Assembly (NCBI RefSeq): GCF_000816845.1
Contig: NZ_CP006880.1
Location: forward strand, 1,922,001 to 1,986,000
DNA: 64,000 nt
Direction of reading: 5' to 3'
Source: Rhizobium gallicum bv. gallicum R602sp
GTDB taxonomy: Bacteria; Pseudomonadota; Alphaproteobacteria; Rhizobiales; Rhizobiaceae
Shown: positions 7,268 through 49,290 of the stretch, piece after piece
Layout of the letters: every line of letters starts with the position of its first letter
Numbering within the stretch: position 1 is the first letter of the stretch
Translations under genes and position numbers: made by a program
Notes under the pieces: model-generated
Databases searched by the model: none
What the model saw: only the letters and a program-made list of their open reading frames with translations
What the model was told of the DNA's origin: nothing

Positions 7268-8304
7268 TCCGCAAATGCCGGCATCACTTCGGCGATAAAG
7301 CGCTGAAGCGATGCTTTCTTGCGCTCGAAGCTCATGCCCGTATCGATCCAGAAGGAATATTCGTCATAACCCATGGCCTCATAGGTCTTGAGGCGCGAGA
7401 CTACGCTTTGTGGACTTCCGACAACGTTGTTGGTGCGCATGACGGCGTCCGACAGCATGGCGTTTGAGTTGATTTCAGCTTCGGGAATTCGCTCAATGAG
7501 ACCTTGCGTGACCGGCTTCTCGTTCTTGAACCACGCGAAGAAGTAGTTGTAGTAGAGGCTGAGCTCATGGGCCGCCTGCGCGATGTCTGCGTCCGACGAA
7601 CCGACATAGGTATGACGCAGCAGCATGATCTTGGGCCGTTCGATCGTCGGATGCTTCGCGCAGGCGTCATTGAACCGTCCCATCAGCGCTTCCACCTCGT
7701 CATCACCCTGCCAAAGGGGGGTAACCTGGACGTTACAGCCGTTGGCGACAGCGAATTCGTGGGAATTCGGATCACGGGCTGCGACCCAGATCGGTGGGTT
7801 GGGCAGCTGCAGCGGTTTCGGCGCCGACGTGGTTGACGGAAACTTGTAAAACTCGCCGTCGTGGGCGTAGTCGCCCTTCCAAATACCTTTGACAGCCGGA
7901 ATGAGCTCGCGCATGCGCTGGCCCGCCGCCCAGGCATCCAGACCGGGAAGCAGACGCTCGTATTCGAACGAATAAGCGCCACGGGCAATCCCGATATCGA
8001 GCCTGCCGTCGCAGATGATGTCGGTCATGGCCGCCTCGCCGGCAAGCTTGATCGGATGCCAGAACGGTGCGATCACCGTTCCTGTGCCTAATCTCGCTCG
8101 CGACGTTCGACGCGCCAGGTCAGCGATGGTCACGAAGGGGTTGGGCGCGATGGTGAAATCCATGCCGTGATGCTCGCCCGTCCAAATCGCATGCATGCCA
8201 CCTTTGTCAGCGATCTCGCAGAGAGCCACGAACTCGTCATACAGGCCTTTGTGGCTCTGACTTTCGTCGAGGCGTTCCATGTGGACGAAGAGAGAAAACT
8301 TCAT
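7264..8304 (-). CDS. Luciferase-like (LLM class) flavin-dependent monooxygenase
   Basis: 346 residues. It has the bacterial-luciferase TIM-barrel signature: MKFSLFVHMERLDES start, MHAIWTGEHHGMDFTIAPNP, then LGTGTVIAPFWHP and GRLDIGIARGAY. Such enzymes use reduced FMN and oxygen and need a separate flavin reductase, which is the very next gene upstream (8301-9236, four-base overlap). Oxygenolytic C-N, C-S or Baeyer-Villiger type reactions are all possible. The trio of LLM enzyme, flavin reductase and alpha/beta hydrolase resembles RutA/RutF/RutD of pyrimidine breakdown, but RutB and RutC are absent, so the substrate probably differs. Confidence 0.93.
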   Translation of the reverse strand: MKFSLFVHMERLDESQSHKGLYDEFVALCEIADKGGMHAIWTGEHHGMDFTIAPNPFVTIADLARRTSRARLGTGTVIAPFWHPIKLAGEAAMTDIICDGRLDIGIARGAYSFEYERLLPGLDAWAAGQRMRELIPAVKGIWKGDYAHDGEFYKFPSTTSAPKPLQLPNPPIWVAARDPNSHEFAVANGCNVQVTPLWQGDDEVEALMGRFNDACAKHPTIERPKIMLLRHTYVGSSDADIAQAAHELSLYYNYFFAWFKNEKPVTQGLIERIPEAEINSNAMLSDAVMRTNNVVGSPQSVVSRLKTYEAMGYDEYSFWIDTGMSFERKKASLQRFIAEVMPAFAE

Positions 8305-12127: not shown

Positions 12128-13012
12128 TTACCCCATGCGCTCGGATGCGTAGCTCCCCGGGCTTGGCGGAAAGACGATGGTGCGGTTGCCATTGATGAAG
12201 GTGCGGCGATGGATATGCGCATGTATGGCGCGCGCCAGAACCTGCGCCTCGACATCGCGGCCGAGCGAGACATAGTCTTCAGGGCTCTGGGCATGGGTGA
12301 CGCGCACCGTGTCCTGTTCGATGATAGGGCCTTCATCGAGGTCTGCGGTGACATAATGAGCCGTCGCGCCGATCAGCTTTACGCCGCGACCGTAGGCCTG
12401 CTTGTACGGATTGGCGCCCTTGAAGCTCGGCAGGAAGGAGTGGTGGATATTGATGATCTTGCCTGACATCTCGGTGCACATGCGATCAGAAAGGATCTGC
12501 ATGTAGCGTGCGAGCACAATGAGTTCGGTGCCGGTTCCTTCCACGAGGTCCATGATCCTGGCTTCCGCCTGCGGCCTGTTCTCCTTGGTCACCGGAATAT
12601 GGTGGAACGGTATATCATGATTGACGACCACTTTCTGATAGTCGAAATGGTTGGAGACGACGCCGATGATATCGATCGGCAGCGCGCCAATTTTCCAGCG
12701 ATAGAGAAGATCGTTGAGGCAATGGCCAAAGCGCGAGACCATCAGCATGACCTTCATGCGCCGCGCGCCATCGTGGACCTTAGCGTCCATCCTGAACGCC
12801 GCGGCGATCGGCTTTAGACCTTCGGCAAGCTCCGCAAGAGCGAGGCCCTCTTCCGACAGGAAGCTGACACGCATGAAGAAGAGACCGGTATCGAGGTCGT
12901 CAAATTGCGACGAGTCGACGATATTGCAGCCTGCATCCGCCAGATAGCCGGACAAGGCGGCCACGATGCCGCGCGTTGATTTGCAGGTGACCGTCAGGAT
13001 GAATTGCGTCAT
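12128..13012 (-). CDS. purU: Formyltetrahydrofolate deformylase
   Basis: 294 residues. The N-terminal ACT domain (about 1-80: FILTVTCKSTRGIVAALSGY) is followed by a formyl-transferase domain with MLMVSRFGHCLNDLLYR, HIPVTKENRPQAE, the catalytic region NIHHSFLPSFKGANPY and HYVTADLDEGPIIEQD. PurU hydrolyses 10-formyl-THF to formate and THF. It lies 81 bases downstream of glnT in the same direction. In this setting it would drain one-carbon units produced when the sox-type enzyme transfers methyl-derived carbon to folate. Confidence 0.96.
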   Translation of the reverse strand: MTQFILTVTCKSTRGIVAALSGYLADAGCNIVDSSQFDDLDTGLFFMRVSFLSEEGLALAELAEGLKPIAAAFRMDAKVHDGARRMKVMLMVSRFGHCLNDLLYRWKIGALPIDIIGVVSNHFDYQKVVVNHDIPFHHIPVTKENRPQAEARIMDLVEGTGTELIVLARYMQILSDRMCTEMSGKIINIHHSFLPSFKGANPYKQAYGRGVKLIGATAHYVTADLDEGPIIEQDTVRVTHAQSPEDYVSLGRDVEAQVLARAIHAHIHRRTFINGNRTIVFPPSPGSYASERMG

Positions 13013-44727: not shown

Positions 44728-45636
44728 TCACATGCGATTTAGAATTACGTCTTCTTCCTCGTCTCGCTGTCGGCCTCCGAGCGCTGCAGCAGCAGAGGCA
44801 ATGAAAGCGCCTATCAGGAGAGACAGAGCGCCGAGCATCGCAGTCGTTGCCGCTGCCTCACGTGCCTCGTCTGCAGCTCTTTGGGCAGTGACCTTGGCAT
44901 CCTCCACCCGCTTTAAGATGGCGTCAACGCGTGTCTTGGCATCGGCCTCCGAAAGACCTGCGTGCGATGCCACGATCGTTGCGAGATAGTTTTTGTCCTC
45001 ATCTGGGATCCCGCCTTGAGCGGCGCCTTGAAGAAGGATTCTCGAGACTTCAGCCGTGGCTGCACCCTGGTCGGTCGTGGCCTGCGCGCGATTTCGGTCT
45101 GGTCGAAGCAAAGCATCGGTGAAATAGGACGCCGAGAGATCGGTCGCCGGCGACTGCGATGATCCTGCTGCGACAGCGCCAGCAAGGCTTGCGTTGGTCG
45201 CCGCTTGGCCGACTGCCTGCGCGCCGGCCCCAGCAAGCGAGGTCAAAGATGACGTCAAGAAACCCACCACGAAAATCGTGGCAACCGCCCAACTGATCAA
45301 ACCATGGGCGGTGTCCCGGAAGAAGACCTCGTCGGTGTGAACAGCGGCCCATCTCGTGCGGAGCCGGCCCGTGAGGTAGCCCCCTAACGCTGCCGACAAC
45401 CACTGCACGACCACCAGCCAAATCGCGGCAGTCACGCCAATGGCCTCTGCCGAAGCGCTCTGTCCTGTCCAAGGCGACACCATCGTCAGCCCGACACCAG
45501 ATCCGAGAAGCAAGAGGATCAGGGTGACGCCTGTGGCGGCGAAAGCACCACCGAGGATCGGTCCCCACGACATCGCGGACTTGGACGATTCGACAGGAGT
45601 GGCCGCGACGTCTGGACCTGTCATGGACATGGACAT
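44728..45636 (-). CDS. Stress-associated membrane protein (PhnA-like/YrzE-type hypothetical)
   Basis: 302 residues from ATG 45636, five bases after AGGAGG; the repetitive start MSMSMTGP leaves several possible Met codons, and a GTG at 45642 overlaps the ribosome site. Hydrophobic helices: WGPILGGAFAATGVTLILLL, AAIWLVVVQWLSAALGGYLT, LISWAVATIFVVGFLTSSL and a C-terminal TAMLGALSLLIGAFIASAAA. The region before the last helix is Ala/Glu/Lys-rich and probably coiled. Many rhizobia carry such proteins, function unknown. It is co-transcribed with the 25-residue peptide and an EcfG promoter lies upstream. Confidence 0.82.
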   Translation of the reverse strand: MSMSMTGPDVAATPVESSKSAMSWGPILGGAFAATGVTLILLLLGSGVGLTMVSPWTGQSASAEAIGVTAAIWLVVVQWLSAALGGYLTGRLRTRWAAVHTDEVFFRDTAHGLISWAVATIFVVGFLTSSLTSLAGAGAQAVGQAATNASLAGAVAAGSSQSPATDLSASYFTDALLRPDRNRAQATTDQGAATAEVSRILLQGAAQGGIPDEDKNYLATIVASHAGLSEADAKTRVDAILKRVEDAKVTAQRAADEAREAAATTAMLGALSLLIGAFIASAAAALGGRQRDEEEDVILNRM

Positions 45637-45645
45637 GGACACCTC

Positions 45646-45723
45646 CTATCGCATGAAGAGAACAAGGAGAATGACGATTGGCAGTGGAATGCCGAGAAGC
45701 CAAAGAAGAATACCGCGACCCAT
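45646..45723 (-). CDS. 25-residue hydrophobic peptide
   Basis: A tiny gene reading MGRGILLWLLGIPLPIVILL plus VLFMR. GGAGG lies seven bases before the ATG, and an EcfG promoter motif lies 46 bases upstream. The stop is next to the AGGAGG of the following gene, so the two are probably translationally coupled. The product is a single membrane helix with a GIPLP kink. Similar MGRG-type mini-proteins occur next to stress genes in proteobacteria, with no known role. Confidence 0.75.
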   Translation of the reverse strand: MGRGILLWLLGIPLPIVILLVLFMR

Positions 45724-45768
45724 GGTGTTGCCTCCGATCTTGAGGTTTTGAAGTTATTGCAGTGACTT

Positions 45769-45793
45769 AACGCTGAGGCCTGTTCAATGTTCC
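45769..45793 (-). promoter_or_regulatory. EcfG-type general stress promoter
   Basis: Minus strand GGAAC (45793-45789), 16-base spacer, CGTT (45772-45769). This matches the alphaproteobacterial sigma EcfG/RpoE2 consensus GGAAC-N16/17-CGTT. It stands about 45 bases before the start of the 25-residue peptide gene. Confidence 0.8.
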
Positions 45794-46059
45794 GGCGTTC
45801 TAACGACCGACCTTTGCTAAATCCTGTCCGCACAGGCAACAGTTTCGTGGGCCCGTGTGGGGCTTCGCCGCAGTTGATCGGATTCCGGACGATTGAGGCA
45901 GCATCACTACCGGCAAAATTATGCAGAACTCGTGTGCAACCCCCACTGCCGGCCGAAGTCGGAGCTGAAAATGTACGTCCTGCCTTACCGAACTGCGATC
46001 GACCACATGGCCTCGAAGCCAGCCATGGAACAAACTTCGCTGAACGCAGTTCGCAAATC

Positions 46060-46467
46060 ATGAACGATCAAGAAAAATGGACGGGCGGATGCCTCTGTGG
46101 AGGATGCCGGTATCAGTTCCAGGGCGATCGGCCTCATTCAGGCTATTGCCATTGCGACATGTGCAAGCGGGCAACGGGCGGCCCGTTCGCGGTTCTTGTC
46201 CAGGCGAGGCTTTCGGATTTGGTTTGGACGACCGGAAAGCCGTCCGTCTACAGGTCTTCGCCGATTGCAACGCGTGGATTCTGTGCCAGTTGCGGGACGC
46301 CGCTCTTTCTGCGGTACGACGGGGACGAATTGATACGACTGACCGCCGGGTCTCTCGATCATCCCGAGCGGATTCGACCGGCGGGGCACTATGGCATCGA
46401 AAGCCGCCTGCGGTGGGCCGAATGTGGACCCGGCTTGCCAGAGGAGGAAACGCAGGAGAGATTCTAG
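46060..46467 (+). CDS. GFA family protein (glutathione-dependent formaldehyde-activating enzyme-like)
   Basis: 135 residues from ATG 46060; the open frame continues about 90 codons upstream but without family similarity. Zinc-binding cysteines: GGCLCGGCRYQF, GYCHCDMCKRATG and FCASCGTPLF, the full GFA/CENP-V pattern. Such proteins bind zinc and some react with glutathione adducts; most are uncharacterised. The start lacks a strong ribosome site. The 335 bases upstream (45724-46059) hold the oppositely oriented EcfG promoter and no other gene. Confidence 0.88.
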   Translation: MNDQEKWTGGCLCGGCRYQFQGDRPHSGYCHCDMCKRATGGPFAVLVQARLSDLVWTTGKPSVYRSSPIATRGFCASCGTPLFLRYDGDELIRLTAGSLDHPERIRPAGHYGIESRLRWAECGPGLPEEETQERF

Positions 46468-46535
46468 CTTGCGAAGAACTTTGCTCGCCGCGGCCGTCGT
46501 CGTTCTGGCCTTGTCGTCTGCGCGCCGCGACCGGG

Positions 46536-46880
46536 TCACCCTCTTAAAACCGGGGCGTCCTTGTCCCTCTCCAGCCGTTCCACACCAATCATGTGGTTTC
46601 GCGCGCCGCTCGACCTGATGAGTTCATCGACCTTCGTTTGAAGCGTCCGCATGTCGCGGTTCTGGGAATGCTGGAGAAGAACGAGGATGAGGCAGGTTGC
46701 CAATGTTGCCAGCATATTTGTTGCCAGGAGCCATTGCTTTGTTGGACCCGTCGCCAAACCGAGAATAACCCAGATTGCGATAACTGCAGCAACGGCCATC
46801 AGGGCAAGCCTGCTTCCGACGATACGTGCGGAGTGATCCGACAGGCGACCAACGAGCTGATGAGCTAGTGGAGTGGGCAC
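46536..46880 (-). CDS. Low-affinity iron permease family protein (PF04120)
   Basis: 114 residues from GTG 46880, chosen because GAGGAAAG lies just upstream and it begins after the stop of the preceding gene; an ATG at 46967 would overlap that gene by 64 bases. Two hydrophobic helices (LALMAVAAVIAIWVILGLAT; LLATNMLATLATCLILVLLQ) followed by HSQNRDMRTLQTKVDELI, the family hallmark. Related to its upstream neighbour; iron transport by these short proteins is not proven. Confidence 0.82.
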   Translation of the reverse strand: MPTPLAHQLVGRLSDHSARIVGSRLALMAVAAVIAIWVILGLATGPTKQWLLATNMLATLATCLILVLLQHSQNRDMRTLQTKVDELIRSSGARNHMIGVERLERDKDAPVLRG

Positions 46881-46903
46881 GATCGCTTTCCTCACTACGC
46901 TGG

Positions 46904-47314
46904 TCAGGCGACGCCTGGAGCGTCCTGCTGAACTGTCGTCTTCTCCTGCGCCTTTTGATCGACGCACTCGGCTTTTTCCGCCAGCATCTTGCTCAGTTCT
47001 CGAAGCTCGTTCTCGCCGAGTTTTTCAATTCCGACGAACTTATTCTGCGCCTGGGATGTCAAGATAAGTTCATCGAGCTTTGCCTGAAGCGCTTTCCCGT
47101 CGCGATTTTGCGAGTTCTGCAGGACGAACACCATCAGGAAAGTGATTATGGTGGTGGATGTGTTGATGACGAGCTGCCACGTCTCCGAAAAGTTGAAGAA
47201 CGGGCCGGATATCGCCCAAATCAGAACCAAAGATACCGCGACAATGAAGGTCCCCGGTCGGCCGGAAAGGTCGGCCACTCCTGTTGCGAACTTGGAAAAG
47301 AACCTGGACGCCAT
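46904..47314 (-). CDS. Low-affinity iron permease family protein (PF04120)
   Basis: 136 residues, GGAGG seven bases before ATG 47314. Two helices (TFIVAVSLVLIWAISGPFF; LVINTSTTIITFLMVFVLQN) followed by the family motif NSQNRDGKALQAKLDELIL. It is the first of a two-gene operon with a paralogous neighbour. An EcfG stress promoter lies 30 bases upstream. Probably an inner-membrane stress protein. Confidence 0.88.
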   Translation of the reverse strand: MASRFFSKFATGVADLSGRPGTFIVAVSLVLIWAISGPFFNFSETWQLVINTSTTIITFLMVFVLQNSQNRDGKALQAKLDELILTSQAQNKFVGIEKLGENELRELSKMLAEKAECVDQKAQEKTTVQQDAPGVA

Positions 47315-47343
47315 TTGCTACCTCCGCGCTGATCGCCCCCATT

Positions 47344-47368
47344 AACGGCCGGAAAGCGTTGCGGTTCC
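47344..47368 (-). promoter_or_regulatory. EcfG-type general stress promoter
   Basis: Minus strand GGAAC (47368-47364), 16-base spacer, CGTT (47347-47344), 30 bases before the start of the PF04120 gene. Exact match to the consensus. The rest of the gap 47369-47624 shows no gene. Confidence 0.8.
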
Positions 47369-47786
47369 TCTCAGCGTCAACGTCGCTCTCTGGCGAGCAT
47401 CAATATGTCGCAGTGCTCTTTTTTGGTGGCGTCGATTTTCACGGCCCGGAAACGGACAAGCTGCGATGCGGCTCACTGTCGGTCGTGATTGTGGCCTGAA
47501 AAGTCGGGTCGCTGCATACCCCAAGATCCGCACTTTTAAAGTTTCCGCGCTGACACTCGGGGTTGACGCATCTAGCGCAAACTCTAGCTGCAGTCCGGGC
47601 GCATCAACATCGAGAGGATGGCAAGTGCTCCAGCAAGAACGCGTGGATCGTCAGAAGCGCACGACGCAGACCGCGGAGAATATCATCGACGACGAACGTC
47701 GCCTTCGTGTCGCGAAGAGCAAACGCCTTCGCGCAGTTCGAATGGCAACACCCCGAGAAAAACCGTCTTTAACAGGGGAGATGAAA

Positions 47787-47996
47787 ATGCCTCAGCTAGA
47801 TAGAATTCCAGCCATTCCGCTCCACGATGAACATGTCGTCACAGCAAGAGAGGCGCTCGAAGGGCTTTATCTGAAACTTCAACAGGAGGCCGAAGTGCGT
47901 CTGGTTGCCGCAGCACTGCGTGCAGGCTGGTCCGCCGAGGAAGCGATCGATGCAATCGACGACCTTCGGAAAGAAGACGTGCAGGTCGTGAATTGA
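47787..47996 (+). CDS. Small hypothetical protein
   Basis: 69 residues from ATG 47787 with AGGGGAG seven bases upstream. Acidic helical protein (MPQLDRIPAIPLHDEHVVTA, LRAGWSAEEAIDAIDDLRKE). No family recognised. The frame stays open upstream; from a GTG at 47625 (AGAGGA six bases before) it would add 54 residues that look coding and strongly charged (LQQERVDRQKRTTQTAENII). The true gene may therefore be 47625-47996. Confidence 0.62.
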   Translation: MPQLDRIPAIPLHDEHVVTAREALEGLYLKLQQEAEVRLVAAALRAGWSAEEAIDAIDDLRKEDVQVVN

Positions 47997-48191
47997 CGCA
48001 TAAGCCCCGAGTAAGGTCGATGGCCAGCGTCGTCGGCGTTTTGACGATTTGTTCGGTTGTTTGGAAGTGGCGCTCCCTCCATTGCACATGCAGGTAGAGG
48101 AACATTTTTTATCGCCCTGGATCGCACGCGCGATGATCAGGACTTACAAACCCAGCCGCAGCGATCTCCCGTAGTCAGGCAAAATACCGTG

Positions 48192-48216
48192 GGAACCTCG
48201 AGGGTGCTGCCTCGTT
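48192..48216 (+). promoter_or_regulatory. EcfG-type general stress promoter
   Basis: GGAAC (48192-48196), 16-base spacer, CGTT (48213-48216), 36 bases before the start of the secreted-protein gene at 48253. Exact match to the consensus. Confidence 0.8.
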
Positions 48217-48252
48217 AGGATGAATCAATAACAACAAATAGGAGGAAGCGTC

Positions 48253-48582
48253 ATGAAACACACTTCGTTGGCTCTGGTTGCCATTGGCATGGCAGCTTTG
48301 ACATCCCAACCAAGCTTCGCCGATTGCGTGGACATAACCGGGTCTACAGGGACGGAGGACCGTAGCGGCATCGCCAAAGACGGTACTCGTGCTCCGATGG
48401 AAGGCAGTGAAACCACGCAAGCGCAAAAGAACAAGGCTGACGCCAACGCACCTCAGAAAGAGGGTGGAACATTGCCGTTGGCCAAGAACCCCAATCTTGC
48501 GACGTCTGAACAGGATGTGGTGGCACAGCAGCATGGCGATAAAACCGCTGCTGCGAAGGCTCAGCAAGACAAGTGCGATTAG
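48253..48582 (+). CDS. Small secreted stress-type hypothetical protein
   Basis: 109 residues; AGGAGGAAG lies just before ATG 48253. Sec signal peptide MKHTSLALVAIGMAALTSQP, then SFA and mature start DCVDITGSTGTEDRSGIAKD. The rest is hydrophilic and low-complexity (QAQKNKADANAPQKEGG, QHGDKTAAAKAQQDKCD); the only two cysteines lie at the two ends of the mature protein. Similar short periplasmic proteins are common in rhizobia; function unknown. An EcfG promoter precedes it. Confidence 0.82.
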   Translation: MKHTSLALVAIGMAALTSQPSFADCVDITGSTGTEDRSGIAKDGTRAPMEGSETTQAQKNKADANAPQKEGGTLPLAKNPNLATSEQDVVAQQHGDKTAAAKAQQDKCD

Positions 48583-49029
48583 TCAGGCGAACCACATCGT
48601 AGATGTGAGGGAGGCATTCGCCTCATAGGTCCACCTGGGGCCCAAAGTCTGCGACGAAACCAAAGCGCGACCGGCGAGCTGCTCCTTCGAGATTTTTGGT
48701 ATGCAGGATCGAATGGGCGTAGCTTCCAGGGGCATGGACGCTCGCGCCGAGGTGGTTCGAAGGCTTGGCGATTTGCCGTTGTGATCTTCTTGACGTTCTG
48801 GGGTGGCGACCACGAGCTCTGACATCGGACCCGAATGCGACTCACTGCGGGGTCTATATATCCGCCTTGTCCCAACTGCTGAGCCGATCCTTCGGCATCA
48901 GCATCTCGGAACGGCGCCATCTCGACCGTCTAGTTGGATGATTCTTCACCATGTCCCAGTGAACACAAACCCCCGGCAAGCCAGGGATTTGTCTGCAGTC
49001 TCACCCAGCGTTTAGCCAGGATCCGTTTC
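48583..49029. other. Intergenic stretch with a structured hairpin
   Basis: About 450 bases with no supported gene. Just after the secreted-protein stop there is a nested inverted repeat: AGGCGAA (48585-48591) with TTCGCCT (48617-48623), enclosing CACATC-GTA-GATGTG (48593-48607). It has no T-run, so a Rho-independent terminator is unlikely; it may protect the mRNA end. A minus-strand frame 48583-48825 lacks a ribosome site. Confidence 0.4.
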
Positions 49030-49236
49030 TTAGTGCCACGTTTGGTTTTCATACCAATCATCGACGTCTTGATGGACGCGGTCGCGAGCCATGCCGTAGC
49101 GCTCCTGGATTTTTCCCTCCAGCTGCTCGCGCTTGCCGGCGATCTGATCAAGATCGTCGTCTGTGAGCTTGCCCCATTGTTCCTTGATCTTGCCCTTCAT
49201 CTGTTTCCAATTACCCTCAACGCGATTCCAATCCAT
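49030..49236 (-). CDS. CsbD family stress protein
   Basis: 68 residues from ATG 49236, with AAAAGGAGG seven bases upstream. CsbD pattern: MDWNRVEGNWKQMKGKIKEQ, GKLTDDDLDQIAGKREQLEG, KIQERYG. CsbD proteins are small, highly charged and induced by general stress; molecular role unknown. An EcfG promoter lies 30 bases upstream. Confidence 0.92.
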   Translation of the reverse strand: MDWNRVEGNWKQMKGKIKEQWGKLTDDDLDQIAGKREQLEGKIQERYGMARDRVHQDVDDWYENQTWH

Positions 49237-49265
49237 AGTGTTTCCTCCTTTTGTTGTGTCGAGAA

Positions 49266-49290
49266 AACGGCCCGTCGCATGTTTTGTTCC
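49266..49290 (-). promoter_or_regulatory. EcfG-type general stress promoter
   Basis: Minus strand GGAAC (49290-49286), 16-base spacer, CGTT (49269-49266), 30 bases before the CsbD start. Exact match to the consensus. Confidence 0.82.

Follow-up and report, generated by a model that had tools for sequence, protein, structure and literature searches.

The question raised by this locus is why four promoters of one kind stand within 3.6 kb. It lies at positions 44,728 to 49,290 of the window analysed here, the 64,000 nucleotides from position 1,922,001 to 1,986,000 of contig NZ_CP006880.1 (assembly GCF_000816845.1) of Rhizobium gallicum bv. gallicum R602sp. The promoters are of the type read by EcfG, the sigma factor of the general stress response (GSR), and each of them stands before a small gene or gene pair. 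A first, sequence-only reading had taken the group for a functional envelope-stress island. Here the locus is described as a non-random GSR cluster, which the statistics below confirm. With a probability of roughly 0.78 it is a four-unit GSR cluster whose core is an operon of a 25-residue micropeptide (pep25) and a membrane protein (mem304), with pep25 a small inner-membrane stress protein and the other units separate GSR genes. The four sites are:

45769..45793, minus strand: P1, EcfG-type promoter (GGAAC-N16-CGTT), exact match, predicted to drive the micropeptide-membrane protein operon
47344..47368, minus strand: P2, EcfG-type promoter (GGAAC-N16-CGTT), exact match, predicted to drive the PF04120 pair
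48192..48216, plus strand: P3, EcfG-type promoter (GGAAC-N16-CGTT), exact match, 5' of the gene for a 109-residue protein
49266..49290, minus strand: P4, EcfG-type promoter (GGAAC-N16-CGTT), exact match, 5' of csbD

Coordinates, letters and the 16-base spacer of all four sites agree with the sequence-only reading, and the short promoter-gene distance it had reported was measured, for P1 to P4 respectively, as 45, 29, 36 and 29 nucleotides between the last base of CGTT and the start codon. Its gene list was likewise recovered, namely a 25-residue peptide with a membrane protein, two PF04120 proteins, a 109-residue protein and a CsbD protein. The four sites are letter for letter the EcfG1 promoter consensus of R. 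etli as given in the accessible part of PMC3892343, and motifs derived from RNA-seq of R. etli under heat and salt, GGAAC-N16-CGTT included, are placed about 16-50 nucleotides before the ATG in the available text of PMC4167512. The window holds no exact copies other than these four, and none of 100 dinucleotide shuffles of the window reached four (mean 0.52, maximum 3). The relaxed pattern GGAA[CT]-N14..18-[CT]GTT gave no further sites between 43.2 and 50.5 kb, sigma-70 promoters showed no excess in the region (1 found, 1.5 expected), and an Rfam scan was negative at gathering thresholds.

The contig to which the window belongs has 2,466,951 bases, in a genome of 7.31 Mb. Counted over this genome the exact motif shows no raw excess, with 91 matches against 116 for the reversed-motif control, so that the letters of the motif alone prove nothing; what is non-random is the position and the clustering of the sites. 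Promoter position, defined as outside called genes and at most 250 nucleotides from a start on the same strand, was found for 49 of the 91 sites against 8.7% of random points, a control that is approximate because the stretches, taken around all 91 sites and annotated with a simple codon-usage gene caller, were picked around sites. The distance is 26-48 nucleotides in 33 of these 49. Site 48192, whose gene the caller had missed, was added by hand, and the resulting 50 sites form 13 pairs within 3.6 kb where 1.19 are expected, a number not reached in any of 20,000 simulations. At least four sites within 3.6 kb arose in only five of 20,000 simulations, which upholds the dense cluster of the sequence-only reading. 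When this cluster and a second one at the phyR locus are taken out, the clustering of the remaining 43 sites is weak, with 4 pairs within 5 kb against an expectation of 1.24, a number equalled or exceeded in 189 of 5000 simulations. A family scan covered the genes behind 10 of the 50 sites (one without any family) and then 5 more; catalase, DUF892, CBS-domain, PNPOx-like and alpha-amylase-family proteins and a cytochrome c are encoded behind other exact sites.

The regulators EcfG, NepR and PhyR are all encoded in the genome, on C1, and the locus holds:

C1:2873906-2874007: NepR, adjoining an extracytoplasmic function (ECF) sigma factor gene
C1:2873314-2873865: ECF sigma factor (EcfG), beside NepR

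PhyR, with sigma-like and receiver domains, is encoded at the same locus and starts 45 nucleotides behind an exact site. The phyR-nepR-ecfG locus (C1:2871663-2876516) is itself the second dense group, with four exact sites of which three are in promoter position; in the stretch C1:2864000-2883900 they lie at positions 7664, 10284, 11169 and 12517. One of them precedes the start called for the neighbouring HWE histidine kinase by 190 nucleotides; since a longer open reading frame begins upstream of that start, the site may fall inside the kinase gene. In R. etli a non-coding RNA, ReC64, is placed downstream of phyR-tcrY by the accessible part of PMC3892343; a homologue of it may have its promoter here in the site at 12517, which is on the minus strand and lies just beyond the kinase gene. 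The contig of the cluster (C4) encodes three ECF paralogues 37-43% identical to EcfG (C4:2438088, C4:1140577 and C4:1272762), one of which may be an EcfG2-like factor. A dedicated envelope-stress sigma factor was considered for the cluster and dropped; the motif and the regulator parts of this genome are those of the GSR.

The operon behind P1 consists of:

45646..45723, minus strand: pep25, 25-residue hydrophobic micropeptide MGRGILLWLLGIPLPIVILLVLFMR plus stop, recognised by translation and conservation
45642..45648, minus strand: TAGGAGG, the pep25 stop overlapping a Shine-Dalgarno-like sequence of the next gene, seen in the sequence and in similar arrangement in relatives
44728..45642, minus strand: mem304, membrane protein with four predicted transmembrane helices and no Pfam family; 302 residues long if, as is more likely, it starts at the ATG at 45636

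More than the cluster, pep25 is the most interesting part of the finding. It matches no Pfam or NCBIfam model, and in 80 loci from Rhizobium, Neorhizobium, Agrobacterium, Shinella and relatives in the Rhizobiaceae it lies directly upstream of the membrane protein in every case, 75 being recognised by a pattern and five variants, which carry M or F around the tenth residue, by eye. The relaxed motif GGAAC-N15..17-NGTT stands upstream of pep25 in 77 of the 80 loci, among them all five variants; in 72 of the 75 pattern loci it lies within 130 nucleotides, 69 times with N16, at a shuffle rate of 0.5%. The peptide is under purifying selection. Over 89 distinct nucleotide sequences the mean proportions of synonymous (pS) and non-synonymous (pN) differences are 0.51 and 0.087, and the ratio of the corresponding rates (dN/dS) is 0.11 (2833 of 3916 pairs, those with pS 0.1-0.6). 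In all 75 loci measured pep25 is more conserved than the membrane protein, with a mean identity of 92% against 72%; the five variants are left out of the dN/dS and identity figures.

Among 93 distinct paired contexts the pep25 stop codon is TAG in 76, TGA in 16 and TAA in one. Among the 82 contexts that were scored as paired automatically, TAGGAG occurs at the stop in 39 and TAG followed directly by GGAG or AGGA in 61; the stop thus lies within the downstream gene's ribosome-binding site or abuts it. Because it lies inside the Shine-Dalgarno sequence of mem304 in the window, translation of the two is probably coupled. The plasmid gene tables of Rhizobium sp. NXC24 and Shinella sp. H4-D48, which are incomplete, list no gene at pep25. 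Downstream of pep25 and the membrane protein, Rhizobium sp. NXC24 and plasmid p1 of Shinella sp. H4-D48 carry a ferritin-like gene, and Shinella a catalase gene as well. In R. leucaenae and Rhizobium sp. BK313 the neighbour of the operon is a gene for a 54-residue hydrophobic protein that has an exact EcfG site before it and csbD nearby. A search for four pep25 fragments found none in openly readable papers, an absence that is weak evidence, and a literature search, mainly of openly readable papers, on the GSR or EcfG together with small proteins or PF04120/PhnA-like proteins yielded no paper on the pep25 operon.

In wider samples, pep25 matches at E <= 0.001 were obtained in 75 of 297 genomes of an even sample of the order, and matches in 33 of 385 and 44 of 398 genomes of a class and a phylum sample, both of which include genomes of the same order. 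A short hydrophobic sequence may arise by convergence, and the claim of conservation is therefore rested on the order. Of 30 order-sample loci, own and same-genus loci included, 29 were readable; the relaxed motif is present in 19 of them (shuffle rate 0.4%) and the membrane protein in 18. Over all 105 contexts pep25 is paired with the membrane protein in 93 and solo in 12. Eight of the solo copies have the relaxed motif, one of them 88 nucleotides away, and a profile search with the membrane-protein family in the twelve solo-copy genomes, two of them less than 90% complete, detected a partner in two and none in ten. Tentatively, and with rather less than even odds, pep25 might be an independent, so far unnamed GSR effector under EcfG across the Hyphomicrobiales, coupled to mem304 in some lineages and partnerless in others.

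The start of mem304 at ATG 45636 is preferred from the spacing to the Shine-Dalgarno sequence and from relatives. Relatives are numerous (6745 at E <= 0.001 among 7997 candidates scored), and the 120 listed, where they are named, are called hypothetical, membrane, transmembrane or PhnA-like protein. Hydrophobic segments are predicted at residues 29-47, 68-86, 115-133 and 270-288; two motifs, VSPW following helix 1 and E-x-x-F-R-D-T preceding helix 3, do not vary among 35 sequences. From the positive-inside rule the loop between helices 2 and 3 would be cytoplasmic and a helical region of about 125 residues periplasmic. A structure model built from 137 sequences reached a mean predicted local distance difference test score (pLDDT) of 83.1, compared with 60.7 for an earlier model from 33 sequences. 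A sequence search of the PDB with mem304 and PF04120 protein A gave nothing significant.

The three remaining units encode:

46904..47314, minus strand: PF04120 protein A, 136 residues, two predicted transmembrane helices (Pfam E 9.9e-47, 158.4 bits against a cut-off of 25)
46536..46967, minus strand: PF04120 protein B, overlapping A, start codon uncertain (Pfam E 4.3e-19, 69 bits against a cut-off of 25)
48253..48582, plus strand: 109-residue protein without a family, signal-peptide-like start as judged by eye, found in 2 of 31 genomes sampled, own included
49030..49236, minus strand: CsbD-like protein, 68 residues (PF05532, E 1.6e-24, 85.9 bits against a cut-off of 40)

Protein B, like protein A, has two predicted transmembrane helices. 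The family name "low affinity iron permease" of PF04120 is an annotation and not a tested function. In the window the two PF04120 genes run in tandem and overlap; in six genomes of the same genus they are convergent. A GFA-family (PF04828) gene at 46060-46467 sits between units 1 and 2. Of the five related records considered below, R. etli 8C-3 has this gene complete and Rhizobium sp. 007 has part of it, and it was undetected in the other three. An open reading frame of 69 residues at 47787-47996, with a sub-threshold DUF433 match (E 0.0012) and without an EcfG site, is 96-100% identical in the same five records and is possibly an antitoxin-like gene or a remnant.

The nearest named relatives found were, among plasmid records, Rhizobium sp. 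007, R. gallicum, Rhizobium sp. CC1099 and R. etli 8C-3 and, among genomes, R. mongolense. Where they align, five related records show 86-92% identity. All five have intact P1 and P4 boxes, and the four in which the PF04120 pair is present have intact P2 boxes, while the spacer letters drift. P3 is intact in two records, reads TGTT in R. etli 8C-3, has lost its -10 box through a 13-nucleotide gap in Rhizobium sp. CC1099, and is missing with its whole unit in R. gallicum M101; to judge from these alignments, its decay may be read as a natural record of the loss of a regulon member. When GGAAC-N15..17-NGTT was searched within 150 nucleotides upstream of orthologues, own genes included, it was found before the first PF04120 gene in 12 of 13 same-genus cases (5 exact, shuffles 0.8%) and before csbD in 13 of 21 (12 exact, shuffles 0.5%).

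From these data the following course of events is proposed. Stress would lead to phosphorylation of PhyR and NepR would be drawn off EcfG, a switch taken from the literature whose parts are present in the genome. EcfG-RNA polymerase would then start each of the four units from its own GGAAC-N16-CGTT promoter. Unit 1 would yield a two-gene mRNA for a single-span inner-membrane peptide of 25 residues and a four-helix membrane protein, with translation of the two probably coupled at the overlapping stop, an arrangement that is seen in the sequence. Where mem304 is present, pep25 might bind and tune it; elsewhere it would act on the membrane or on another partner. The PF04120 pair, CsbD and the 109-residue protein would be separate GSR genes gathered nearby and gained and lost singly. 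The dependence on EcfG, the translation of pep25, its inner-membrane location, its binding to a partner and a protective role are what we infer from sequence.

Several observations weigh against this picture. The raw motif count falls short of its reversed control, as given above. The exact N16-CGTT promoter precedes pep25 in just 24 of the 80 Rhizobiaceae loci, the others differing in the first -10 letter or in the spacer; the relaxed motif fails in three, and 34 of the loci contain no exact site anywhere. The relaxed motif is also missing at 8 of 21 csbD and 1 of 13 PF04120 orthologues, in 10 of the 29 readable order-sample loci and in three of seven readable loci (of nine) in a second small set from the order. 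Outside the order it is present in 5 and missing in 10 of 15 readable loci (of 30), and outside the class it is absent from the single readable locus (of four). Weak distant matches to pep25 may be unrelated, a hydrophobic span of 25 residues being open to convergence. Loci of the same genus are not independent of each other, and a search for structural relatives with the model of mean pLDDT 83.1 found none that was convincing for mem304.

It is somewhat unlikely that ordinary GSR genes have come to lie side by side by chance on a megaplasmid that holds other stress genes, with the cluster meaningless and the pep25 reading frame a mere leader that couples translation of mem304. Turnover of the neighbourhood speaks for this explanation: within 6 kb of the mem304 gene in the 80 loci, some of them shortened by contig ends, PF04120 occurs 19 times, CsbD 14 times, either of them 27 times, both 6 times and the 109-residue protein twice. 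Gene order and orientation vary between genomes, and single modules are missing in close relatives. The weak clustering of the 43 remaining sites points the same way, and the overlap of stop codon and Shine-Dalgarno sequence would suit a leader. On the other side stand the simulations, in which four sites in 3.6 kb were this rare, and the surroundings of the 80 mem304 loci, where 972 kb contain 89 exact sites against 4 reversed ones. After subtraction of the 24 pep25 promoters 65 exact sites remain there, a density of about 67 per Mb, compared with 12 per Mb for the genome of the window; since the 80 loci are related to each other, this ratio is no probability. A pure leader, moreover, is not expected to keep its residues, as the dN/dS of pep25 indicates, or to exist partnerless. 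Given the reshuffled order and the partial gene sets around mem304, the neighbourhood is taken to be real but modular. Apart from the pep25-mem304 operon the GSR cluster seems to be a loose collection of genes under separate promoters and not one functional unit.

The functional envelope-stress island of the sequence-only reading, with proteins acting jointly on the cell envelope, is supported in its EcfG-type sites, for which the regulator genes are present, and in the density of the cluster, and is not supported in the envelope role and in a fixed gene set. Predicted membrane spans in pep25, mem304 and the PF04120 pair would fit such an island, and the genes lie within about 5 kb, in differing order, in several same-genus genomes. 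CsbD, for which no hydrophobic segment is predicted, does not fit it, the PF04120 and CsbD genes are not conserved jointly around mem304, and EcfG is a general stress sigma factor and not an envelope-stress factor; a dedicated island is improbable. That the sites match by chance, or serve another ECF sigma factor, is very improbable: the raw count below the reversed control, the three paralogues on C4 and the partial sharing of targets by a second factor, EcfG2, in R. etli (accessible part of PMC3892343) would allow it, but the sites lie in promoter position, they cluster, their boxes are kept while the spacers drift, and they agree exactly with the EcfG1 motif.

Read as a GSR cluster around the pep25-mem304 operon, the locus has one of its closest known counterparts in the EcfG1 regulon of R. 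etli, which, as far as the available text of PMC3892343 goes, shares with it the genus, the promoter letters and the EcfG-NepR-PhyR parts. The RpoE2 regulon of S. meliloti is likewise under the GSR sigma factor (PMC3616915, in part, where the pep25-mem304 operon does not come up). In Sphingopyxis granuli, a member of a different bacterial family, csbD is a GSR target too, EcfG-dependent by quantitative reverse-transcription PCR, and the regulon also uses -10 boxes such as TGTT, CATT and GGTT (accessible sections of PMC7083833, in which the micropeptide does not come up). Many alphaproteobacterial GSR targets are without known function; in S. meliloti 150 of the 202 genes raised by RpoE2 overexpression have no predicted function (PMC3616915).

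A counterpart by description is SEP6 of S. meliloti, which has fewer than 30 residues and one predicted transmembrane helix, is conserved in Hyphomicrobiales and fractionates mainly with the pellet containing membranes and ribosomes (PMC10117765, in part). SEP6 and pep25 might be the same peptide, the likeness being one of description only. The present case suggests that regulon lists drawn from annotated genes may miss members of the size of pep25. Since its sequence is kept over much of the order, behind a GSR-type promoter with or without the partner, pep25 offers a small handle, easily tagged or deleted, on the action of the GSR at the membrane. KdpF, AcrZ, MgtS and CydX are examples of small membrane proteins by which a larger one is modulated. 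By description the pep25-mem304 operon resembles them in having a one-span peptide encoded with, or acting on, a larger membrane protein; unlike peptides of that kind, pep25 also persists where its partner is absent.

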